From Butyrivibrio proteoclasticus B316 (GTDB lineage: Bacteria; Bacillota; Clostridia; Lachnospirales; Lachnospiraceae): a stretch of 64,000 nucleotides of DNA. Every line of letters starts with the position of its first letter. Within the stretch, counting starts at the first letter, position 1. Below, piece by piece: positions 8,273 through 58,261 of the stretch. A program made the translations under genes and the position numbers. Under the pieces are notes generated by a model that worked only from the letters and a program-made list of their open reading frames with translations, did not search any database and was not told where the DNA came from. The stretch spans positions 2,470,001-2,534,000 of the forward strand of contig NC_014387.1 in assembly GCF_000145035.1 (NCBI RefSeq), given 5' to 3'.

Positions 8273-10765
8273 TCACACAATCATTTCTTCCATTGTGTCA
8301 ACACTTATCGTGAAAGGTTCTTCAAGCTTAATATAGTTTTCGATCTTGTGTGCAACCCCAGACATAATGAAAGTTACTCCGTTAAACAGCTGCTCGGTTA
8401 TGACTGCTGTAGCATTATTACTGTTTTCTATGGTAACATCCATTAGCCTTAGTTTTTTCTTTATATCTTCAATCTGGTGCTCTTTGACACTTGTAGCAGC
8501 ACTTATCTTTATTTTCCACTGCATCTGTTCTCTGCTGCTGACAGCGCCAATTTCCTGAAGTCTTTCTTTTTCTGCCCTGAGGGTATTAAGTTCCTCTTCC
8601 TTACGAAGAAGCTCTTTTTGCAGGTTTCTGTAATCAACCTGAAATTCTGTAGACAGCCCAAGATTTATAGTTGTCTTGACCCCACCTTTGCTTCCGACGT
8701 TAGCAGCCTCAAGTCCAAAGCTGGTCTGCAGTGTACCGCCATATAAAACGCCGTCTTTCCCGACGATCTTAACCTTTTCCTTGGCTGCAATATCACAATT
8801 GACAATTGCATTGGCATAGACATTCTGTGCCTTGACTGATACTCTTTCCAGATATTTGGCAGAAACATTGCCAGCTGCCTCTATTCCGCCTCTGACAGGG
8901 CACGTTGCCCCGCCCTTAATGACCACATTTCCTCCGCTTGTGATAAAAGAGCTGGTTACATGGCCACTGATTATGACATCTCCGGTTGCATGAATCTCTG
9001 AGCCGGAATCCACATCACCAGTAACAAGAAGGCTTCCGTCCACTCTGACAATCTTGTCTGTAAGTTTAACTTCAGACATAACTGTAAGCTTTGTTATGTT
9101 GATCTCACTTTCAGAATATGACAATATCCCCTTGTACTTGGCAACATAGGTCACTCTGTCGTTCATCACCATAAATCCCTCTCCTCTTAGGACTGGGATC
9201 TCGTGACCTCTTTTAGCAGGAATAACATTTCCAAAAATATCACTTCCATCAGATCCTGCGGTTGCCTTGTGATACACGGCAACTACGCTTCCGACGTTTA
9301 CTCTGTTGACTGCATCAAGTCTCGAACAGTCTATACTGCCATCTTCGTTTTCTATAAAGCCAAAAGAATTATCTCTGTCAAAACAGTATTCATAATATCC
9401 ATTAGTTCCATCCACAGCATCAATTCCTGTAGCAATAAGGACTTTCTCACCAGGATGACTTAACAGATTCTCGATTGTTTTCTGATCAATAGTGCTCTTA
9501 ATATTGCACTTTTCAAGGAATTTCATGATTATCTCAGGTGTATACACACTTTTCCTGGCTTTTGGCGGAAGTGTCATGTAACCGAGCATCTGGCCACATT
9601 CTACAGACAAAAAAGATTTCTTGTTAGCCAGCATCTGTCCAAGAAGATTAGCTTTCTTACTACCATCATCCTCTGCGTTTTCCGTAAATTCATTAACAAG
9701 GCTCTTTTCATAGAACTCACCGGAAAGCATCTGCCCTCTGATTCGTCTCATATCTTTGGCAGTATACATAAATGATGAGTACTGGCTTACATCCAGACCA
9801 TCCTCAAGACCAAGACGTATTTCCCTCATCTGATCTGCCCAGTACAAAGGATTGCTATACAGAGATATATTTATCTGATTTTCAAGCCCAAGACGCATTT
9901 CATGCATCTGTTGCCAGTTAAAACAGGAATCAGCATATTCCTCTACCGGAAGTCCCTTTTCCAGCCCAAGGCGAACTTCCTTAATTGCATCTGAGCGCAT
10001 ATCAGGAGATATATATTTATCAAGATCGAGTACTTCCTTGATTCCAATGCAGATTTCTTCAAGTTGTTCCGCATCATAACCGCTTTGTATATATTTATTT
10101 ATGTTTATGTTATCTTTAAAAGCTTTGTGGAGCTGATCCAGAATTCCATAATGGTATTTATGTATTTTTTCCTTATCAAAGAAAAGCCCATCCTCAGCGC
10201 TTTCTCTGATGACCCTCATTTTCATGTAAGGCACATCTACGTATGCATAATCAGATACATCAAGCTGGGCTTCAAGACCTTTTCTGATCTCTCGCATCTG
10301 CATATAGTCAAATGCTGGATCCATGTAGAAAATAATAGGAAAATCGGGTGATATCGCAAGGCCCTTTCTGATTTCTCGCATTTGCTCTGCCAGATAGTCT
10401 TTGCGTGCGTAAACAGATACATCAATTTTGTTAACTAATCCCTTTCTGATCTGAAATACCTGTTGTGTATCAAAACCCTGTTCCCTATATGAAGACATGT
10501 CAAATCCCTGACGCATTTCAAGGCGCATCTCTTCCATTTCAAGCCAGGATAATTTAGGATTAAGATATTTGTTGACATCAACCTTATCCGCTATTCCTTT
10601 ACGTATTTCAGCAAGTTGCAGAGGATTGTATTCATTTTTGAATTTACGAACATCAACTCCCAATTCCAAGAGGAGCTGGGCCTCACGTTCATAGGAACCC
10701 TTATCAAAAGAATTTATGCCTGAATAAATGCTGAATTCTTTCTTTTTACTATTCTTAACTGACAT
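8273..10765 (-). CDS. FapA/DUF342 family protein with N-terminal EIRxGL repeats
   Basis: The C-terminal half is a FapA (DUF342) domain: a beta-helix core with repeated short strands such as GDVVISGHVTSSFITSGGNVVIKGG (split in the protein by glycine turns), then a coiled coil (KELLRKEEELNTLRAEKERL). FapA proteins are linked to flagellar assembly or spore/surface polymers; the exact role is unknown. The N-terminal ~370 residues consist of about eleven degenerate units of 26-28 residues around a core like QMREIRKGLEAQLDVSDY. I start at the ATG at 10765 (830 residues): a promoter at 10815-10843 overlaps the alternative TTG start at 10843, so the longer form would not be transcribed. Confidence 0.8.
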   Translation of the reverse strand: MSVKNSKKKEFSIYSGINSFDKGSYEREAQLLLELGVDVRKFKNEYNPLQLAEIRKGIADKVDVNKYLNPKLSWLEMEEMRLEMRQGFDMSSYREQGFDTQQVFQIRKGLVNKIDVSVYARKDYLAEQMREIRKGLAISPDFPIIFYMDPAFDYMQMREIRKGLEAQLDVSDYAYVDVPYMKMRVIRESAEDGLFFDKEKIHKYHYGILDQLHKAFKDNININKYIQSGYDAEQLEEICIGIKEVLDLDKYISPDMRSDAIKEVRLGLEKGLPVEEYADSCFNWQQMHEMRLGLENQINISLYSNPLYWADQMREIRLGLEDGLDVSQYSSFMYTAKDMRRIRGQMLSGEFYEKSLVNEFTENAEDDGSKKANLLGQMLANKKSFLSVECGQMLGYMTLPPKARKSVYTPEIIMKFLEKCNIKSTIDQKTIENLLSHPGEKVLIATGIDAVDGTNGYYEYCFDRDNSFGFIENEDGSIDCSRLDAVNRVNVGSVVAVYHKATAGSDGSDIFGNVIPAKRGHEIPVLRGEGFMVMNDRVTYVAKYKGILSYSESEINITKLTVMSEVKLTDKIVRVDGSLLVTGDVDSGSEIHATGDVIISGHVTSSFITSGGNVVIKGGATCPVRGGIEAAGNVSAKYLERVSVKAQNVYANAIVNCDIAAKEKVKIVGKDGVLYGGTLQTSFGLEAANVGSKGGVKTTINLGLSTEFQVDYRNLQKELLRKEEELNTLRAEKERLQEIGAVSSREQMQWKIKISAATSVKEHQIEDIKKKLRLMDVTIENSNNATAVITEQLFNGVTFIMSGVAHKIENYIKLEEPFTISVDTMEEMIV

Positions 10766-25098: not shown

Positions 25099-25099
25099 A

Positions 25100-25284
25100 G
25101 CACCCGAAAAGCTTTTTCCTCACAGCATTTCCCCCTGCTCGTCACTGACAAATGCAGATTTTCCCAGATATTTCCGCATTTTTTCTTTTATTGATGCATG
25201 CTCAACTAAACTTGCAGGAAGGATTGTAGTTTATAATTGAAAATGACATAGCCCGCTTGTCGGGCGTAAAAAGAGAAGTTATCA
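25100..25284. repeat. Palindromic repeat element, left half (copy 1, interrupted)
   Basis: Left arm of a long imperfect palindrome whose right half is at 29841-30055. From outside in: base stem GCACCCG (25100-25106, pairing with 30049-30055), an arm that matches 46843-46930 of the copy at 46681 (about 30 identical bases from 25134, then few mismatches), stem GAAAATGACATA (25239-25250, pairing with 29901-29912), a small hairpin (25251-25265) and the central-stem arm (25268-25284, pairing 16 of 17 with 29867-29883). The element stops abruptly at 25284 where AT-rich DNA begins. Confidence 0.85.
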
Positions 25285-25299
25285 TTATTTGCCATATAC

Positions 25300-25327
25300 T
25301 AAAGAGGCAACCCTTTCGGATTGCCTC
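25300..25327 (-). terminator. Probable terminator of the PRTase-PNP gene
   Basis: GAGGCAA (25304-25310) pairs with TTGCCTC (25321-25327), giving a 7-bp stem with a 10-base loop; on the minus strand TTTAG follows. The T-run is short. It lies 15 bp inside the left junction of the AT-rich insert. Confidence 0.6.
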
Positions 25328-25434
25328 TCCATTCATCTTCTCAATTCCTTGGATATAGGGCATTTCAATACGTGATTCCGTGTTCACAGAATCATTCTTA
25401 TAACTGGTACCACTTTTGAATAAATAAATGCTTG

Positions 25435-28400
25435 TTATTCATTTCCTATGATACTTATTAATTCGCGTAACACAATAGCTGCATTTTCTGCCGCAGGTTG
25501 TCTATACTTTTTTACTTCTTCTTTACTTTTATTTTCGTCAGCCATATCTGAAATACCTCTAATAATACAAATTCCCTTTTTCGGCTGCTCATCATTTAAT
25601 TTACTTTCATAAAATGCAGATGTAAATCCCCCAGCCTCCATTTCACAAGCAAGAATCTTGTCATTATAATTATTTATCCAACTTCTGATCTTAGATTTTG
25701 TTGACTTTATCACTGCACTTCCACTAGCTATGTCACCAATTACAACATTTATTGTTTTTCCAATACTATTTTCAGCTGGCTCAATCTCTTTCTTTGATAT
25801 AGACCTTGAAACAGCCTGATAAAGTGGACTAGTCTCAACATTTACAGTAAACTCCTTACCTCTACGAACAATACCTTCGTCCGTATCTTTGCTCAAATCA
25901 TATCCCACTACGCCTTCTGCCAAAACAACAGACGTATAATTAACGTCATCGTTTATTCCACCTGCAATTCCCACTAAACATATCATATCCGGATTATATT
26001 GCTTCATAAGATACGAAAATGTACTTATTATTGACTGTTCACCCTGCTGTAAACATTGCGTCAATATTACATCATAATTTCCAACTTTTCCAGCAAATTC
26101 AAGTCTCTTTCCTTGTACAAATGGCTTTTCACTAAGCTGAAGAACTTTTTCTACTGCCCGTGTTTCTTCTTCAATAATTGTAATTATTCCAATAATCTTA
26201 TCTTCCATACCATTATTCTCCCGCTCTGTCGAATGTTGCGGTGCTTCTAAGTTCCTTCTATACATGAACCTAGACTCATAGTTAATAATTTGCGTAGGTT
26301 TCTCATCAATTATTTTCTCTGTACTTTCGCACCTTTTGTATTTAAATTGTTCTTTTCTCTGTGTTCTAGGGTCCTCCAAGTATTGAATATATCTATTATT
26401 CTTTTCCAGAGATTTTTCTAATACAATGCTGATTTGGTTCTTCTTCCAATCTGTAAAAAAGATTGCTGATGGCAACGTCATAGCATAATCATAAAATGAA
26501 TTACATATAAACTCACCGTTTGAATTATTCCCTTCTTTTATTGCATAAGAATTCTCAATATCTCCTAGATATGTAAACTTCAACGGCACTACATCTTTAA
26601 GGCAGAAAGAAAGATTCAATGTAAGTATTGCTAACGCCTCAGCACCAGCATTACCTATCGCAATAAACCAAACAGCTCTCTCTGATTCATCAAGGATTAT
26701 GTCTGGGTTATATTTTTCCGGCAATTCAACTAAATGAGCATCATTACGCTTACCATTTGCATATGACGTGCATATATTTATATTATTCCATACTGCTCTT
26801 TCTTGTTGAAGATTGGAAACCTTGTATGTCAAATATAATACATGATTATATCTAACTAATTTATGTATTTTACCACTCTGCCCCAGAACACAGCATATAT
26901 CATCTAGCAAATCTTTTGTTATTCTTAACAAAAAGCTTATTGTACTATAGATTTCTTCAATTAAATGAGAACCAATATAATTTTCTACAATAACCTTCGT
27001 TCCTTCAATTGAATAACATTTTTCTATTTGTTTTTTTGTATTTTCATATAGCTTCTTGATTTCACTAAATTCATCAAAATACCTGTTCTTGTCATCACAA
27101 AATTCTATACATTCATCTTCTATTTTTTGTAGCTTGAAAAACTCTCCATAGGCTTTGTTATTTGTTTTTTTCTTTAGATTTAAAAAATGTACTTTTTTAC
27201 GTAGAACGAATAAGCACAACAAATAAACGGCCACATATTTAGACCTATAATAAAGCGAGGACAAATCTTCTTTTAATGTTTCATCAGCTATAGTGTTTTT
27301 TTCTTCAAACACTTCACTGAACATATTCTTCCAGGTGATGTTATCACTTTTTGATGCAAAATTTACATCTTTTATAAGCTTTGCTGCCTCTCCTGTTTCA
27401 AATGCCTTCAGCTTCATTAAAGCACTATTTAATGCTTCATATGCTTTTTCATTGGCATTTTTACTCCCCGGTTCCGATGTAAATGAAAAATTATGTTTAC
27501 AAATATTCAATTCTGCCGCTACAGCTTTAATACAATTTTCTCTTGTTAAACAGGTTGCTATCTTAGTTAGCTCTTGATCCCCATATACAACACCAGTATC
27601 TTCATTTTTATTACAAACTCTACCTAGCAAAATAGCTGGCAGCTGTACATCAGTCAATTCTTTCAATCCTATTGCTGATGTATCTGGTTCGTTTACTCTG
27701 TATCCACTTCTATCACCATCTGAAATAAGTCCCTTTTTGCTAAAAACTTGAGTAAGCCAAGTTGATTTATCCTCAGATGTAATATACGGAATATATTTTG
27801 TTGGAGCATGTTCCACTTTAGTTGCAACTATAGCAACAGGTCCTTTTAAATATGTTTTCACTCTCAAAATTCTACTATTATCATCATTTGGATTTATAGA
27901 AAAATTCGATAAATATGTAGAAAGTATTTCTTTCTTTATTCCAAGCTCAGTAAATAATACAATCAGCTTTTCCGCAGCAATATGCGTAATAGTTCGTTTT
28001 TCACTATCTTTGTTACTTTCTTCCTGAAACTCATATAAGAAATAAGAGTATAAAGTCTCTTCTTTCTCACCAAATAGCACATCCTCACCATGTCGAAAGG
28101 CTCTAAATACAAATCCATCCTTTGTTTGCGTTATAGGAACAATTATCCCCATATCAACAGACCTATCAATAAATAATGAGACCTTCGTCACACAATCATA
28201 GTAATCCCTAACATAATATATTGTTGACAGAAGATCCCCAACTGATATTCCCTTATTCAGCCTTTGCAAAATCTCCTGGTACCGTTCATCTTTAAAAGCA
28301 TCTTTTCCTTTATCTAAGACTAACTGTCTACATGGTATTTCTTTGTTATAGTATAAATCCAAAAATGGCTCAATTAATCTAGCTTCTGTAGAAATATAAT

Positions 28401-29574
28401 CTACTCCATCAATTACGCTTTTATACTCGCCTGAGAGAGACTCTGATCTGCCAAAGTGAATTTGTGGAAGTATTCTATTCATTGAATTCCTACATAAATC
28501 TTTAACCTCACTATCTATTTCAGGTGGAAATATAAATCTTAAATTCTTTTGTTCTATTTGTATTACACTTAAATCAACTCCTATATCTTCTGGCAAAAAA
28601 GTATTCCAAAATAGTGCTAATTTATATGAATAATAGTATTGAACTAAGCGCAATTTAGATGTAATATCAAAAAAATCTTCAGCATGTATTTCATTATCCT
28701 TTGTGATATTTGAAAACACTTCCTCGATTGTTTCAATATTCACTTTATCGAAAACAACCATAGGTAATACACTTATTGAATAGAAATCTTTATTCTTTTC
28801 TTTATGTGTAATATATGTTCTAATTTTAATAAGTGCGCAGTTACTTATACTACAATTCTCTATTAATTCAAATTCTTTTATTGCATTTTTAGTTGGGATA
28901 AATGTAACTGAATAAATCTCATTATTACGTTGTTCAGGCGTCGAAACATCATAAGAGTTCCAACCAACTAGATTTATAAACCTTGAAAAGTTAGTACTCT
29001 TTACATCAAATCTATTAAAAAGCGGAAAGTCAATATCATATGGTCTAGGTTGAAGCAGTATTGACTTTACCACTCTATAACACAAACTAATACAATCCTC
29101 ATTAGTAGCAACATTACAATTTGGATACAAATAACTTTTTCCTGTGTTATCAGTAAGCATATCTGGTTGAAACCATTTTTTATTTACTGACAAGACATAG
29201 ACATTAATAGATTTTACTTTCGCTTCAACCAATCTATTAATAGTTCTATTGATTGATGTCCCAGATACGATGGCATCATCAATTATAATTACTTCTTTAT
29301 CACATAACCATGATGTATCCATATCCAGTATACGCTCACTAGTAACATACCCATTAAAAGAAATAAGACCTAATTCTTCCAAACAGTAAAAAAAACATGA
29401 TGCTTTTCTTGCCATCAAAAAATAGACATCCGCCTGAGTTTCTGAAATTTTTCTACAAAAATCCAATAACTCAGTCTGTGTATCGCTATCGAAACAATTT
29501 AGTAGCCTATCTATCCTTACATTTGAATCCGAGCTTTCCTTGTGTCCGTTTTTTGACAATACTTCATTCCCCAT
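25435..29574 (-). CDS. Phosphoribosyltransferase - nucleoside phosphorylase (MTAN-like) fusion protein
   Basis: A 1379-residue protein with two nucleotide-enzyme domains at its ends. Residues about 20-190 form a type I PRTase-like domain: VIIIDDAIVSGTSI (95-108) is the PRPP loop (DDxxxSGTS), preceded by FLMARKASCFFYCLEELG. Residues 1123-1379 are a nucleoside phosphorylase/MTA-SAH nucleosidase-like domain with GIITIIEEE, VGIAGGI, ACEMEAGGF (Glu near 1311 and 1313) and RGISDMAD (Asp near 1343), so all three catalytic positions of MTAN are kept. About 900 residues between match nothing I recognise. I start at the ATG at 29574 (GGGAG eight bases upstream). Composition is far more AT-rich than the neighbours (two sampled 60-base lines have 25% G+C). 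No partner gene is on the insert. A conflict or defence role is inference. Confidence 0.8.
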   Translation of the reverse strand: MGNEVLSKNGHKESSDSNVRIDRLLNCFDSDTQTELLDFCRKISETQADVYFLMARKASCFFYCLEELGLISFNGYVTSERILDMDTSWLCDKEVIIIDDAIVSGTSINRTINRLVEAKVKSINVYVLSVNKKWFQPDMLTDNTGKSYLYPNCNVATNEDCISLCYRVVKSILLQPRPYDIDFPLFNRFDVKSTNFSRFINLVGWNSYDVSTPEQRNNEIYSVTFIPTKNAIKEFELIENCSISNCALIKIRTYITHKEKNKDFYSISVLPMVVFDKVNIETIEEVFSNITKDNEIHAEDFFDITSKLRLVQYYYSYKLALFWNTFLPEDIGVDLSVIQIEQKNLRFIFPPEIDSEVKDLCRNSMNRILPQIHFGRSESLSGEYKSVIDGVDYISTEARLIEPFLDLYYNKEIPCRQLVLDKGKDAFKDERYQEILQRLNKGISVGDLLSTIYYVRDYYDCVTKVSLFIDRSVDMGIIVPITQTKDGFVFRAFRHGEDVLFGEKEETLYSYFLYEFQEESNKDSEKRTITHIAAEKLIVLFTELGIKKEILSTYLSNFSINPNDDNSRILRVKTYLKGPVAIVATKVEHAPTKYIPYITSEDKSTWLTQVFSKKGLISDGDRSGYRVNEPDTSAIGLKELTDVQLPAILLGRVCNKNEDTGVVYGDQELTKIATCLTRENCIKAVAAELNICKHNFSFTSEPGSKNANEKAYEALNSALMKLKAFETGEAAKLIKDVNFASKSDNITWKNMFSEVFEEKNTIADETLKEDLSSLYYRSKYVAVYLLCLFVLRKKVHFLNLKKKTNNKAYGEFFKLQKIEDECIEFCDDKNRYFDEFSEIKKLYENTKKQIEKCYSIEGTKVIVENYIGSHLIEEIYSTISFLLRITKDLLDDICCVLGQSGKIHKLVRYNHVLYLTYKVSNLQQERAVWNNINICTSYANGKRNDAHLVELPEKYNPDIILDESERAVWFIAIGNAGAEALAILTLNLSFCLKDVVPLKFTYLGDIENSYAIKEGNNSNGEFICNSFYDYAMTLPSAIFFTDWKKNQISIVLEKSLEKNNRYIQYLEDPRTQRKEQFKYKRCESTEKIIDEKPTQIINYESRFMYRRNLEAPQHSTERENNGMEDKIIGIITIIEEETRAVEKVLQLSEKPFVQGKRLEFAGKVGNYDVILTQCLQQGEQSIISTFSYLMKQYNPDMICLVGIAGGINDDVNYTSVVLAEGVVGYDLSKDTDEGIVRRGKEFTVNVETSPLYQAVSRSISKKEIEPAENSIGKTINVVIGDIASGSAVIKSTKSKIRSWINNYNDKILACEMEAGGFTSAFYESKLNDEQPKKGICIIRGISDMADENKSKEEVKKYRQPAAENAAIVLRELISIIGNE

Positions 29575-29809
29575 ATTTGCGTCTCCCATAATTATGCATA
29601 AATACATTAACTACTATTGAAAGCCTATAAGGAAAATATTACATACATTTTATAAAATTTCAACAAATATTATAAACAATTTATAAATTGCAAGTCCTAG
29701 TGTAGCACAATATTATCACTTTTTCATATTCGTGATTTAATTGACAAGTATCAAAATAGTTTATTTGTAGCTTTATAATTTGTATATATATGCAAATTAT
29801 ATAGAAAAT

Positions 29810-29834
29810 GCCGTTTAGCATATTGCTAAACGGC
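29810..29834. other. Perfect hairpin at the right end of the AT-rich insert
   Basis: An 11-bp perfect inverted repeat (29810-29820 with 29824-29834) with a TAT loop. It lies about 8 bp inside the right junction of the insert and upstream of the PRTase-PNP gene. No T-run follows on either strand, so it does not look like a normal terminator. The stretch 29575-29809 before it is AT-rich leader with several -10-like motifs and no single clear promoter. Confidence 0.7.
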
Positions 29835-29840
29835 CTACGT

Positions 29841-30055
29841 TGTCTTCCAAGCTAGCTTGAAGAAGTTGATACCTTCTCTTTTTATAGATGCTACGCATCA
29901 TATGTCATTTTCTTTTGTCAGTATAATCTAACCGTCCTGCTTCAGACAAAGCTTCGCATGCATCGTGAAAAATGCTATGGAAACATTAGAAAATCGCATT
30001 TGCCATCTCAGACTCGCATGGGAAAGCTACTGCATCGGAAGCGCTTTGCGGGTGC
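29841..30055. repeat. Palindromic repeat element, right half (copy 1, interrupted)
   Basis: Continues the element begun at 25100. It holds the central loop (29844-29862, whose reverse complement is in the copy at 46681), the central-stem arm (29867-29883), a GATGC/GCATC hairpin (29887-29899), the stem TATGTCATTTTC (29901-29912) and the other long arm. Bases 29968-30020 are identical to 47124-47176. The base stem ends at 30055. Together with 25100-25284 it would form an element of about 400 bp. Confidence 0.85.
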
Positions 30056-30117
30056 GAGTTTTGAAACGTAGAATTCTTATGCCGCTTATATTGGGAAGAT
30101 ATCCTAATCCATAGTCA

Positions 30118-30236
30118 GAAATCCGCACTAGCTGCGGATTTCGTGAGAATATGATACGATTTGCAAATAAGCCCTTCGACGAAGTCGACTTTAAATGGCC
30201 TATTTACAGCATTCTTGAATCTTCTGATTCAAGAAT
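30118..30236. other. Two strong hairpins downstream of mgtC
   Basis: Perfect stems at 30118-30142 (GAAATCCGC, 7-base loop) and 30211-30236 (11-bp ATTCTTGAATC, loop TTCT). They lie in the 250-bp stretch between the repeat element and the end of mgtC, which has no gene. Neither is followed by a clear T-run. They may be further members of the intergenic hairpin families of this genome. Confidence 0.6.
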
Positions 30237-30312
30237 ACCTGAAATCCCGGATTTGAGTGGCGAAAAAACCTTTTTGAACGAGCTGACATGTGCGCCTTGC
30301 GGCGAGGGATAT

Positions 30313-31011
30313 TTAGATTTCCTCGACGTAGCTTATAAAGTCGAGCTCATTGAGCTCGTTGATGAGCATTCTGTGGGAATGCTTTTTGTCGAAGTCTATG
30401 TCGATTATGATGGCTGTGTCGGAGGACTGGATTGTCTTTTCCTTGCTCTTGGTCAGGCTGCTGACCTTGTAGCCCTTGTCACCAATCCACTTTGTAAGTT
30501 TCTTGACTCCGCCACCTTTGTTGACTTCTACGTAGAGGCTGACGTATTTGCTGTAATCCTCTACTACTTTACTGAGATTGACAAGAACTACGTTGGCAAT
30601 CATAACAAGTACAAAGCAGATAATACCTACAACGAGGTATCCTCCGCCTATGGCCATTCCCATGCAGGATGCTACCCAAAGAGACGCAGCCGTTGTAAGT
30701 CCCTTGATCTGCTGGCGCCCTGTTACAAGGATAGTACCGGCGCCAAGGAAACCTATACCACTAACTACACCTGCAGGAATACGGCTGACATCCGCGTTAA
30801 GCCCCGGCAGATTTGCAAGATATATATTCAGAGAAGTAGCTACTGCAGAGCCAAGACTTACCAGCGCAAAAGTCTTGATTCCTGCGCTATGTCTTTTGAC
30901 AACTCTCTCCCAACCGATAAGGCTGCCAAACAGTGTGGCAAGGATAAGTCTGATTGCAACAGCTAAATCAGCAGGCCCTTCCAAAAATTCTATTAGTGTC
31001 TGTGTTCCCAT
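30313..31011 (-). CDS. MgtC/SapB family membrane protein
   Basis: The N-terminal MgtC domain (about 1-145) has four hydrophobic segments with the hallmark LATLFGSLIGWERV and IPAGVVSGIGFLGAGTIL. A C-terminal ACT-like soluble domain (about 150-232) follows, as in longer MgtC proteins. Proteins of this family affect Mg2+ homeostasis and ATP synthase or cellulose regulation in pathogens; in gut Firmicutes the role is unclear. I start at the ATG at 31011, five bases after AGGAGG; a GTG two codons earlier overlaps that site. Confidence 0.9.
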   Translation of the reverse strand: MGTQTLIEFLEGPADLAVAIRLILATLFGSLIGWERVVKRHSAGIKTFALVSLGSAVATSLNIYLANLPGLNADVSRIPAGVVSGIGFLGAGTILVTGRQQIKGLTTAASLWVASCMGMAIGGGYLVVGIICFVLVMIANVVLVNLSKVVEDYSKYVSLYVEVNKGGGVKKLTKWIGDKGYKVSSLTKSKEKTIQSSDTAIIIDIDFDKKHSHRMLINELNELDFISYVEEI

Positions 31012-41778: not shown

Positions 41779-42427
41779 CCCGCCCCGAGCCGCCCTCATG
41801 TTCTTCCGCTCACGCAAGAGGTATTTCTTCACCACTCCTGCCGGGATTTCAAGGCCTTACAAATTCAGCCTCCTATTCTATGGCTCAAAACTCACATCCT
41901 CGGCCCGGTTTCAAGCAGATGTTGTTGCATGCGAGTCTGAGATGGCAAATGCGATTTTCTAATGTTTCCATAGCATTTTTTCACAATGCATGCGAAGCTC
42001 TGTCTGAAGCAGGACGGTTATGTGTATTCAAGATGAAAATGCCTTATAGCGCGTAGCGCTTACAAAAAGAGAGAACTCAATCTTTCAAGTTAACTTGAAG
42101 AAGTTGAGTTCTCTCTTTTTGATCACGCTCGCTTTGCGAGCTAAGGCATTTTCATTAAGTTAATTCATGTTCCGTCCTGCAAGTTTAGCTGAGCATGCAT
42201 CAATAAAAGAAAAAATGCGGAAACATCTGAGAAAATCTGCATTTGTCAGTGACGAGCAGGCAATAACACTGCGCGAATAAAGGGCCGTCGGATGCTCAGA
42301 CATGTTGAGCCATGAGCAAGAATATCCGGCTGAATTTGTGAGGCTCATGAAATACCCCGGCACTCACAAAGGCTCAGAAATACCTCTTTGCGAATCGCTT
42401 GCGTCCATGAGTACGGCTCGGGGCGGG
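41779..42427. repeat. Palindromic repeat element, copy 2 (about 649 bp)
   Basis: Long imperfect palindrome. Base stem: 41779-41800 with 42406-42427 (22 bp, two mismatches). Then two ~230-bp arms of different sequence type (41800-42020 and 42168-42405). Middle stem ATGAAAATGCCTTA (42033-42046) with 42142-42155, perfect. Side hairpins AGCGC-GTA-GCGCT (42048-42060) and GCTCGC-TTT-GCGAGC (42127-42141). Central stem 42064-42080 with 42104-42120 (17 bp, perfect) around a 16-base palindrome. The copy at 46681 is in the opposite orientation. Open frames in it (41709-42056, 42160-42363) are also open in that copy only by homology and are not taken as genes. Confidence 0.9.
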
Positions 42428-46680: not shown

Positions 46681-47324
46681 CGCAATCCGCCCGCAGGGAC
46701 GTTAGCGATTCGCAAAGAGGCATTTTTGCGCCTTTGTGAGTGCCGGGTTATTTCATGAGCCTCACAAATTCAGCCGGATATTCTTGCCTATGGCTCAACT
46801 GTCTGAGCATCCGACGGCCCTTTTACCCGCGCAGTGTTATTGCCTGCTCGTCACTGACAAATGCAGATTTTCTTAGATGTTTCCGCATTTTTTCTTTTAT
46901 TGATGCATGCTCAGCTAAACTAGCAGGACGGACTACAGAGCTGCTAATTGAAAATGACATATGATGCGTAGCATCTAAAAAAGAGAAGAAATTGTCTTCT
47001 TCAAGCTAGCTTGGAAGAACAATTTCTTCTCTTTTTAATACGCTCGCAAAGCGAGCTATGTCATTTTCAGAATATAAACATAATTTCCGTCCTGCTTCAA
47101 ACAGAGCTTCGCATGCATCGTGAAAAAATGCTATGGAAACATTAGAAAATCGCATTTGCCATCTCAGACTCGCATGCAACAACATCTGCTTAAAACCGGG
47201 CCGAGGATGTGAGTACTTTGAGCCATAGAATAGACGGCTGAATTTTTAAGGCCATGAAATCCCGGCAGGAGTGGCAAAAAAATGCCTCTTGCGTGAGCGA
47301 AAGAACCTGCGGGCGGATCGTGGC
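46681..47324. repeat. Palindromic repeat element, copy 3 (about 640 bp)
   Basis: Same family as 41779-42427 but in opposite orientation. Base stem 46685-46697 with 47306-47318 (13 bp, perfect). Middle stem GAAAATGACATA (46950-46961) with 47057-47068. Side hairpins GATGC-GTA-GCATC (46963-46975) and GCTCGC-AAA-GCGAGC (about 47042-47056). Central stem AAAAAAGAGAAGAAATTGT with its complement around 46977-47036. All these stems differ in sequence from those of copy 2, yet stay paired. It fills the gap between the panT-like gene and the dehydrogenase. The open frame at 46740-46964 is part of the repeat and not accepted as a gene. Confidence 0.9.
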
Positions 47325-55869: not shown

Positions 55870-56358
55870 TCAGGAATTATCATCTCCTGTATTCATACGG
55901 GCCATGTTATCAATCACATGGTCTAAAAGAGTTCTGAGTTTCTCGACATTCTCTTCGCTCATCCCATCCGTCAGAACAGCGTTCATTTTATGCCTTCGCT
56001 CTTTGTTTTTTTCAATAAAGGCTTCGCCCTTATCAGTAATGGCGATATTACGATATTTCCTGTTATCAGGGTCTACCACAATCTTCACCATCTCTTTTTC
56101 CTCAAGTCTCTTAAGAAGCCCTATTGTAGTCGGATGTTTGATATGAAGAGCCTCAGATATATCCTTCTGTGTAACCCTCTGATCTCTCCTCTCCCACAAT
56201 ATCAGCATGACCATCATCTGAGAAAATGTCATATCATCTTCCCTCAGCTGATTGTTGATCATATTCGCAAAAGCCTCATGGATCAACTTGAATTTGAAGC
56301 TTATGGGTTCATGGCTCTTATCTCTTACAAACTCTCTTTCCTTGTCATAGCAAGTCAT
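55870..56358 (-). CDS. MarR family transcriptional regulator
   Basis: 162 residues with a winged helix-turn-helix (about 45-115): RVTQKDISEALHIKHPTTIGLLKRLEEKEM followed by the wing VDPDNRKYRNIAITDKG, read here in two parts. First gene of an operon with two ABC half-exporters, a common efflux arrangement in which the drug releases MarR. The start at 56358 has GAGGTG upstream; a GTG two codons earlier overlaps that site. Two operator-like inverted repeats flank the -10 of its promoter, so it probably represses its own operon. Confidence 0.93.
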   Translation of the reverse strand: MTCYDKEREFVRDKSHEPISFKFKLIHEAFANMINNQLREDDMTFSQMMVMLILWERRDQRVTQKDISEALHIKHPTTIGLLKRLEEKEMVKIVVDPDNRKYRNIAITDKGEAFIEKNKERRHKMNAVLTDGMSEENVEKLRTLLDHVIDNMARMNTGDDNS

Positions 56359-56394
56359 AATCACCTCTCATATTCTGTAAACAAAAAAGAACAT

Positions 56395-56442
56395 GTAGCT
56401 AGATACATAAAATATATTACGTAGCTAACTACATGTTGTCAA
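56395..56442 (-). promoter_or_regulatory. Promoter and twin operators of the marR operon
   Basis: On the minus strand a perfect TTGACA (56442..56437), 17-base spacer and TAATAT (56419..56414). Two 12-base near-palindromes, GTAGCTAACTAC (56421-56432, within the spacer) and GTAGCTAGATAC (56395-56406, just after the start point), share GTAGCTA and start 26 bp apart. Binding of a MarR dimer to both would block the promoter. Confidence 0.8.
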
Positions 56443-56578
56443 TACAAATATTCAAATTTGTCAGTGCTGCGTTGGTATTATATGCTTTGTCCCTTTTTAC
56501 AAAAGTGTTTCTATATGTTGTACAACTTGAATTTGTCGCTATGGCAAGCTAAAAGTGGTTCTGTAAACTACCTTTCAA

Positions 56579-57010
56579 TTATTCGCAATACATACATATA
56601 GTTCCATTTGATAACTTAAATCCATTCTTTTCGTAAAACTTAGCCGCTGGCGCATACTCGCTTGTATAAAGAACAATTCCCGCAAGTCCTTTTTCCTTAC
56701 TATAATCTTTAACCGCATTTAATAGCTGTTTACCTATTCCATGACCTTGTCGTTCGGGAAGTACTGCCATCTCATTAATGTAAATCTCTTCTTTGCTCCC
56801 GGAAATCTTACAAAGTGCAAATATACATCCTAATACTTCGCTATTTTCTTCATATACATACCCAACAAATCTTTTCTGCTCAAAAAAATCCAGAAGATAT
56901 TCTGTTGCATTTTCTGCTGTCCAATCTATTCCCCAATGTTCCATAGGGAATGCTTTTGAATAAATCATGCCACATTGTGCTAAGTCAGTGTTCTCCATAA
57001 CTCTGATCAT
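56579..57010 (-). CDS. GNAT family N-acetyltransferase
   Basis: 143 residues with the GNAT core. The acetyl-CoA motif is EMAVLPERQGHGIGKQLLNAV (Q/RxxGxG/A type), preceded by the beta strand ILGCIFALCKI and followed by LYTSEYAPAAKFYEKNGFKL. It resembles the ribosomal-protein/small-molecule acetyltransferases of Firmicutes; the substrate is unknown. It has no operon partner: a 365-bp stretch without genes lies upstream. Confidence 0.88.
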   Translation of the reverse strand: MIRVMENTDLAQCGMIYSKAFPMEHWGIDWTAENATEYLLDFFEQKRFVGYVYEENSEVLGCIFALCKISGSKEEIYINEMAVLPERQGHGIGKQLLNAVKDYSKEKGLAGIVLYTSEYAPAAKFYEKNGFKLSNGTICMYCE

Positions 57011-57168
57011 TTTGCCACCCCCATCACCAAATTTTGATTTGAATTATTCTATCATGAGCAACACCAATGTAAAAAGGGAGTATGCTTTTATGTAATACCA
57101 AGCTTGTCATGGTATCTATGTTGGTATTATGCTTAATTATAGAATAATATCAACTTCTTCATAATTCT

Positions 57169-57360
57169 GGCTTTGTTATTACGGTAAATTCATTTTAGAC
57201 TTTAAAATTGCTAAAATAATAATAACAAAGCTGTAGATTATCTCTGGTTGTGTTTATTTTTTTCAATTTCAGGGCTTATTATCACTTACTAAGCATAATA
57301 ACAAAGCTGTGGTTTAGTATATCTTAGTATTATTTGATAATGATCCATAATAACAAAACA
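57169..57360. repeat. Repeated ATAATAACAAAGCTGT motifs in a gene-free stretch
   Basis: Between the GNAT gene and the next gene (57011-57375) no coding region is seen. The motif ATAATAACAAAGCTGT occurs at 57219-57234 and 57295-57310, a shortened CATAATAACAAAAC at 57346-57359, and an inverted GGCTTTGTTATT at 57169-57180. The rest of the stretch is AT-rich. Confidence 0.6.
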
Positions 57361-57375
57361 TTGTTTTTGTCTTAC

Positions 57376-57591
57376 TTAGTATATCTTCTCTATATGCCAG
57401 GTAATACCATACATATTCATAAACTCTGCCAGATCATTATTATCCTTAATGAGCATCACTTCCTCAAATGCTCCCGTGCTGATATCCTGAAAGCCGGCGA
57501 CCTGCTCTCCATTGCATATGCTCGCCTTGATCACAGGACGCTGTTTTTCCTTGTCATATGTTTTCGTTTCACTCTTTTTCTTAAAAAACAT
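57376..57591 (-). CDS. Small conserved protein of Lachnospiraceae (function unknown)
   Basis: 71 residues: MFFKKKSETKTYDKEKQRPV then IKASICNGEQVAGFQDISTG and EVMLIKDNNDLAEFMNMYGI (three short blocks). The pattern CNGEQVAGF with DISTG is recognisable as a small family of gut Firmicutes sometimes annotated as aspartate dehydrogenase, for which the protein is too short. Function unknown. The ATG at 57591 has GGAGGA 13 bases upstream; the ATG at 57627 has no good site. Confidence 0.65.
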   Translation of the reverse strand: MFFKKKSETKTYDKEKQRPVIKASICNGEQVAGFQDISTGAFEEVMLIKDNNDLAEFMNMYGITWHIEKIY

Positions 57592-57673
57592 ATCAGCAAT
57601 ATCTTCCTCCAAAAAAGAACTGCACATGTTCTCTTATCTCTATAAAAATCACTAGCATAGAATAGCTCATTAT

Positions 57674-58261
57674 TCACATAAACAAGCTCAGCTGCTCATA
57701 ATCGCTGCTTCTTAAAAGTTCAGGCATAGGTTCTTTTATCATTTCCATAGCAGCCTGGCTATCTTTAATATAATCTGCAATATTGCTTTTCTCTATCATT
57801 ACCGGCATTCTGTCATGGACAGGCTCCATTGATTTATTAGCCTTAGTAGTCAATATCACAAAAGAATCTCTGTTCTCGCTAAGATCATAGAATCCGGCAA
57901 GATATATAGGTTTAGCATCATCTCGTTTAAATATGAATTTTGTCTTTTCTTTATCCCATTCATAGAAGCCTGTGGCAGGGAGTATACATCTTCTCTTACT
58001 TATGCTGTCTGAAAACATGGCCTTCTCCATTACAGACTCAGCTCTGGCATTTATGATAAGCTTTCTGTCTTTGGACATGATCCCCCAAAACAGCTCAGAT
58101 ATAGATACCCCCTTGCTGGCATTTCTGTTCCAAATGATCCCAGGAGTAACCATACCAGGAGTAATATCTCCGGCGCTGGTTTTTTTAAGGCCATGCCCAA
58201 GACCTAAGTCGTCTTCTACTTCATGTGTAGTTTTATCAGAAAAAAAATATCTTCCGCACAA
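57674..58261 (-). CDS. SOS response-associated peptidase (SRAP/YedK family)
   Basis: SRAP-domain protein of 195 residues that covalently caps abasic sites in single-stranded DNA. The catalytic Cys2 is exposed after Met removal (MCGRYFF). Further active-site residues lie in INARAESV (Asn near 75), LPATGFYEW (Glu near 105) and PVHDRMPVM (His near 160). All key motifs are present and the length is close to the family norm. It stands alone. Confidence 0.95.
   Translation of the reverse strand: MCGRYFFSDKTTHEVEDDLGLGHGLKKTSAGDITPGMVTPGIIWNRNASKGVSISELFWGIMSKDRKLIINARAESVMEKAMFSDSISKRRCILPATGFYEWDKEKTKFIFKRDDAKPIYLAGFYDLSENRDSFVILTTKANKSMEPVHDRMPVMIEKSNIADYIKDSQAAMEMIKEPMPELLRSSDYEQLSLFM

Follow-up and report, generated by a model that had tools for sequence, protein, structure and literature searches.

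What is the function of a protein that combines a phosphoribosyltransferase (PRTase) domain at its N-terminus with a nucleosidase-like domain at its C-terminus, and whose gene stands by itself on DNA that looks foreign to its surroundings? This question is raised by a gene for a protein of 1379 amino acids, located on the minus strand of a 64-kb stretch of the Butyrivibrio proteoclasticus B316 genome (NC_014387.1, positions 2,470,001 to 2,534,000), which is referred to in the following as the window and to which all coordinates without a locus name refer. A first-pass annotation had treated the pairing of the two domains around some 900 unassigned residues as a unit and had proposed a nucleotide-targeting defense protein. 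Both domains are real, but the unit turned out to be a different one, namely a chassis formed by residues 1 to approximately 1110 that carries an exchangeable effector, the PNP domain being the commonest. With a probability of roughly two thirds, we regard the protein as a sensor-effector of abortive-infection type in a single chain, directed against phages or other mobile elements, whose PNP domain would hydrolyze nucleotides when triggered. This reading draws on the domain order and conserved active sites seen in sequences and model, on the exchange of C-termini, on the absence of the gene from close relatives and on defense genes near some family members.

A constant chassis with exchanged C-terminal domains

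A search with the whole protein yielded 75 homologs, while a five-sequence chassis alignment yielded 130 and a divergent ten-sequence alignment 144 (the best 120 being listed in both cases); each search scored only the approximately 8000 candidates sharing most words with the query. A profile built from a 55-row alignment (A4) detected the chassis in 182 of the 192 retrieved proteins, and in 170 of them it is nearly full. When the C-terminal classes of these 170 were assigned by profiles built from members, 130 ended in a PNP domain, 23 in a TIR domain (21 by the tail profile, P0104 and P0120 by precomputed PF13676 matches) and three in a GT4-conflict domain (P0122 at 2.5e-111). Further ends are a TIR-like domain, PF10137, in P0003, a protease-like domain recognized by eye in P0140, and various other tails in nine members, the last segment being strongly hydrophobic in four of these; three members (P0066, P0136, and P0173) are without any further domain. 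TIR, PNPase, and GT4 domains are named as predicted effectors of counter-invader systems in passages of PMC8195603.

The exchange has left its mark on the tree of the N-terminal module, on which the ten C-terminal classes need 13 changes where 9 would be the minimum possible (97 rows, FastTree); without eight long rows, nine classes need 10 changes with a minimum of 8 (89 rows, quick IQ-TREE). The window protein groups, at a support of 100, with P0001 and P0002, which carry PNP domains, and with P0003, which is 56% identical and has the TIR-like end. Likewise, P0015 with one of the other tails pairs with the PNP protein P0008 at 63% identity. The same chassis thus occurs with different C-termini, and these pairs are natural effector swaps at 56–63% identity. 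An effector may also have moved to another kind of sensor: P0064 is a NACHT-HEAT protein (NACHT at 3e-5, just under the Pfam cut-off) with a C-terminal PNP domain that shares 51% identity with that of the window protein and pairs with that of the family member P0004 within the family's PNP branch (support 97, quick IQ-TREE). Because the PNP domains of P0064 and P0004 are 76% identical, one effector appears to serve two different sensors, and the P0064 domain is a candidate for a recent effector transfer between them.

These observations bear directly on a rival explanation, an ordinary bifunctional nucleotide-salvage enzyme. Both ends of the protein do resemble salvage enzymes, but the nucleosidase is swapped for TIR, GT4, and other domains, a dead cyclase domain and a probable winged helix lie between the two ends, and the distribution is patchy with the window gene residing on an AT-rich insert. 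We consider this explanation very improbable indeed.

Active sites of the PRTase and the nucleosidase

Coordinates of all features are collected in Table 1. The first-pass annotation was right about both ends of the protein. The PRTase has an HPRT-like fold in the AlphaFold model (pLDDT, the predicted local distance difference test score, 84.6), and its loop for phosphoribosyl pyrophosphate (PRPP) is conserved: in the 97-row alignment of members that was used for all residue counts, D99, D100 (as D or E) and G105 are each kept in 96 rows, the one remaining row having a gap. At the C-terminus, the motifs typical of methylthioadenosine/S-adenosylhomocysteine nucleosidases were found as predicted (EEE at 1135, EMEAG at 1311, and SDMAD at 1342), providing the catalytic Glu/Glu/Asp residues E1137, E1313, and D1343. 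E1313 and D1343 are present in all 76 PNP rows of the alignment and E1137 in 68 of them, the remainder being seven gaps and one Q. Pfam recognizes PNP_UDP_1 at 3.5e-18 and, below the family cut-off, Pribosyltran at 1.9e-4, and PADLOC reports PDC-M60C (4.5e-17) and 'Effector, PN-superfamily' (1.6e-13). The chassis has no credible match beyond weak PRTase ones in Pfam, NCBIfam, PADLOC, and PHROGs at the limits used.

The supposedly unassigned middle can now be filled in part, as a probable winged-helix domain and a class III cyclase fold are assigned in the model; none of its assignable parts is a housekeeping enzyme. Its most conserved block contains the RHGE motif, and R494, H495, G496, E497, D470, G476, V479, and P480 are kept in 97 of 97 aligned members.

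Table 1. Features of the 1379-residue protein gene and its surroundings in the window.
Feature	Position	Strand	Basis
Gene for the 1379-aa PRTase/winged-helix/cyclase-homology/PNP protein	25435..29574	-	Open frame; start with GGGAG
Type I phosphoribosyltransferase (HPRT-like) domain, residues ~19–180	29035..29520	-	AlphaFold model
PRPP-binding loop VIIIDDAIVSGTSI, residues 95–108	29251..29292	-	Alignment of members
Alpha/beta segment, residues ~189–291	28702..29010	-	Secondary structure of models
Probable winged-helix domain, residues ~389–499	28078..28410	-	AlphaFold model
Most conserved block, residues 466–505, with invariant RHGE (494–497)	28060..28179	-	Alignment
Class III nucleotide-cyclase homology domain, residues 905–1103, both metal aspartates lost	26266..26862	-	AlphaFold model
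PNP/MTAN-superfamily nucleosidase domain, residues 1128–1373	25456..26193	-	PNP_UDP_1 3.5e-18, MTAN structures, catalytic residues
Terminator-like hairpin 3' of the gene	25300..25330	-	RNA fold of 25225–25365 minus strand, z -3.4
Stretch lacking in the two nearest relatives	25099..30312	.	Comparison with G063 and G014
MITE-like repeat copies in the window	42035–42153, 46950–47068 (intact), 29804–29912, 25239–25284 (half copy)

How could these parts act together? We infer that residues 1 to approximately 1110, that is, the HPRT-type PRTase, the winged helix with its RHGE motif, helical linkers, and the dead cyclase, serve as sensor and switch. The trigger may be a change in the level of PRPP or a nucleotide, or contact of the winged helix with DNA or protein. 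The triggered chassis would then render the C-terminal PNP/MTAN-type effector active, which would hydrolyze the N-glycosidic bond of adenine nucleotides, most likely ATP by analogy with the Detocs PNP, so that the cell would be stopped before the phage can multiply. According to PMC11249213, the PNP effector of the best-described Detocs system is specific for ATP, which it splits into adenine and ribose-5'-triphosphate, and PMC10952713 lists PNP domains for CBASS, Detocs, prokaryotic Argonaute (pAgo), DRT8, and NLR-like systems.

The PRTase, too, might be a weapon. It could itself be toxic with the PNP domain as a second effector, and the winged helix and the helical part would restrain both and sense the phage. 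The PRTase site is approximately as conserved as the PNP site, and the PADLOC profile for ShosT weakly matches the window PRTase (0.093) and those of five of eight relatives scanned (L027, L030, L031, P0066, and P0125; 4e-5 to 6.5e-3), though not P0107, P0136, and P0140. Moreover, PRTases are regarded as probable effectors in PMC9122126 for retrons and a DprA-PRTase system, and in PMC12548924 for type III retrons, where the PRTase acts alongside a winged-helix protein. On the other hand, the PRTase is constant and the C-terminal domain changes, and in immune proteins it is usually the effector that varies and the sensor that stays. In addition, D99 is retained in 96 of the 97 rows irrespective of the C-terminus, a pattern more in keeping with a switch than with a second toxin. 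We therefore prefer the PRTase as part of the switch, because it stays constant while effectors vary, and hold a toxic PRTase to be unlikely.

Predicted dead and intact copies of the cyclase domain

A cyclase had been suspected even before the model, on the strength of YD(I/V)(I/V)(D/N) and S-x-(D/N)-D-x-K motifs in P0066, P0136, L027, L030, and L031, five relatives that have no added effector. The stretch with these motifs can be aligned to the remaining members of a 24-sequence comparison. Of six members without added domain, five possess both presumed metal aspartates, as do two of 168 with an effector or tail (P0055 and P0114), counted as sequences and not as independent events; as the five relatives were first spotted through the motif, this pattern is a description and not a blind test. 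P0173, which is the sixth of the members without added domain, does not have the two aspartates together, nor does the window protein. The first aspartate alone is a D in 56 of 131 PNP rows, in four of nine tail rows, and in the protease row; no such D appears in the three GT4 rows or in the 19 TIR rows listed (of 23). Judged by sequence and model, the domain of the window protein is a predicted pseudo-cyclase, catalytically dead through loss of its metal aspartates.

One of the members that keep both aspartates has a candidate partner. In L030, a membrane-protein gene (L030:8191-8793) overlaps the start of the family gene at 8793, and a PycTM match assigned to it by coordinates is sub-threshold (17.4 bits with a cut-off of 27.2, E 0.011) and stems from a permissive search (limit E 10) that gave matches in 10 of 14 control genomes as well. 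No PycTM-like gene was seen beside the members in L027 and L031, so that L030 is one of three. The arrangement suggests a Pycsar-like pair.

A broader interpretation, possible but tentative and in our estimate rather doubtful, is that of an as yet unnamed immune chassis consisting of PRTase, winged helix, and class III cyclase with two modes of action. In the first, a live cyclase would signal through a cyclic nucleotide to an effector in another protein, such as the product of the L030 membrane-protein gene. In the second, adopted by most lineages, the cyclase would be dead and PNP, TIR, GT4, a protease-like domain, or a membrane-active tail would be fused directly. The dead cyclase would have been kept as a switch or dimer part, and the PRTase would read PRPP or a nucleotide, replacing the NTPase (nucleoside triphosphatase) of NLR-like proteins.

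A lone gene on an insert

The gene is a complete frame of 1379 codons in the assembled genome. Its start ATG is preceded by GGGAG 8 nt upstream, and another in-frame ATG, at 29607, has a less favorable position. The suspicion of a lone gene on foreign-looking DNA was borne out. Its G+C content is 0.319 compared with 0.370–0.437 elsewhere in the 64 kb (102 overlapping segments of equal length), and the AT-rich insert of approximately 5.2 kb holds no other gene. A further AT-rich stretch at 56001–58000 (G+C 0.349) contains a GNAT acetyltransferase gene (56579–57010, minus). The insert is flanked by a SNF2-family helicase gene on one side and by genes for MgtC and shikimate kinase on the other, past which lie those for triosephosphate isomerase and phosphoglycerate kinase (both named by eye). 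In G063 and G014, the nearest members of the genus as ranked by SNF2 identity (90% and 84%), the site is empty: the helicase and MgtC genes converge and are only about 50 bp apart, and the 5.2 kb between them in the window is therefore extra. Among 60 relatives with genomes 60–100% complete, none has the full-length gene, while a match to the MTAN-like end alone is found in 16. Homologs at conserved core positions, which would have spoken against the first-pass reading, did not turn up.

The insert is bounded by one full and one half copy of a palindromic repeat that resembles miniature inverted-repeat transposable elements (MITEs), with hairpins in both arms. We considered the inverted repeats at the edges as ends of a mobile unit and rejected this, as they are copies of a genome-wide repeat with eight strict pattern matches in the genome; since they are also found elsewhere, they reveal little of how the gene itself moves.

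Distribution and genomic neighbors of relatives

A pattern-limited scan found at least 24 loci in genome contigs of 84,980 species, which by title belong to six phyla (Bacillota, Bacteroidota, Pseudomonadota, Actinomycetota, Verrucomicrobiota, and, represented by a Syntrophus, one more); viral contigs contributed one locus, identical in both scans. One copy, L015:9986-14053, is broken, with chassis and PNP pieces in separate open frames.

Twelve of 20 neighbor proteins, hand-picked from 182 and scanned without a random control, match PADLOC at 1e-5, in seven of 12 loci; no picked neighbor in L011, L012, L018, L022, and L027 gave a match at this threshold. The matches include Gabija GajA and GajB two genes upstream in L030 (2e-272 and 5e-252) and a restriction-endonuclease-type partner with a long-B pAgo directly downstream in L028. 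L032 has methylases of the HsdM-like and PD-Lambda-5_B types, L029 has a mad8/HerA match as well as an HNH effector-like protein, L024 has PDC-S42, and L035, a phage contig, has AbiU-like and ATPase genes. In L031, the matching neighbor (L031:5499-9335, minus) combines a subtilase domain with trypsin-like and DNA/RNA non-specific endonuclease ones. Integrase or resolvase genes lie near L012, L014, L029, and L035.

Such surroundings could also befit a selfish or toxin-antitoxin-like module that targets rival elements or ensures that it is itself retained, given that family genes occur on an insert, on a phage contig, and near recombinases. Furthermore, clearly homologous small divergent genes (approximately 110–120 aa) lie directly upstream in three loci (L012:9609-9941, L013:1009-1377, and L014:2322-2660, minus) and could encode a regulator or antitoxin; possible equivalents at L015:9578-9946 and L035:9143-9469 gave no match to the three in a search. 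However, such a partner was seen neither in most loci nor in the window, where the frames of 29575–30320 were read by eye, and several relatives reside near defense systems, so that we judge a selfish module to be quite improbable. The originally proposed nucleotide-targeting defense protein fits the exchanged effectors, the defense neighbors, the patchy distribution, and the empty site; the defense function as such we infer.

Comparison with known systems

Full-text literature searches returned no description of a PRTase/winged-helix/pseudo-cyclase/PNP architecture, and as far as searched the chassis is undescribed. The DefensePredictor article (PMC13092281) has a figure on new systems whose legend includes 'PRTase', and its unvalidated predictions include a purine phosphorylase domain; either may correspond to this family.

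The PNP domain resembles Cap17/PNP ATP-nucleosidase effectors, in which PNP_UDP_1 with the catalytic Glu/Glu/Asp is likewise fused to a presumed sensor, in line with the PADLOC match to 'Effector, PN-superfamily'. The window protein differs in that its sensor is the PRTase/winged-helix/pseudo-cyclase chassis, and its PNP substrate is a prediction. A TIR/PNP-associating SLOG domain (PF18178) is listed for Cap17 in PMC10952713, whereas Pfam matches up to E=1 show neither a SLOG domain (PF18178) nor a receiver or NTPase domain in the window protein. Detocs is a three-gene two-component system. Its effector is fused to a receiver domain, whereas the window gene stands alone between the SNF2 helicase and MgtC.

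PRTases in a defense setting are also known from ShosTA/DprA-PRTase and type III retrons, and the latter also use a winged-helix partner (PMC12548924, in part). The window PRTase shares the HPRT-like fold and PRPP loop of type I phosphoribosyltransferases but is one domain of a 1379-residue protein that the ShosT profile matches only weakly, and neither DprA nor a reverse transcriptase was found among ten window proteins scanned by Pfam. With Pycsar, the family shares the class III cyclase fold, and five of its members without added effector keep both metal aspartates; unlike in Pycsar with its separate effector, the window copy has lost them and has its effector in the same chain.

A parallel in design is offered by NLR-like (STAND NTPase) proteins, which are also large single proteins with a constant part and exchanged TIR, PNP, GT4, or protease-like effectors, and one of which, the NACHT-HEAT protein P0064, has a PNP domain with 76% identity to that of a family member. 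The window protein, however, is without a P-loop NTPase (NACHT, NB-ARC, or similar), and a PRTase stands in its place. The exchange of effectors thus places the PRTase-chassis protein in a known kind of system. To our knowledge, immune proteins that combine a fixed sensor with exchangeable effectors mostly rely on NTPases or cyclic-nucleotide receptors. A chassis of PRTase and (pseudo-)cyclase, rare yet phylogenetically widespread, would be a different route from infection to nucleotide destruction, for which the PRPP loop, RHGE, E1313, and D1343 stand out as testable residues, and, if true, would suggest how a second-messenger enzyme can turn into a one-protein suicide switch.

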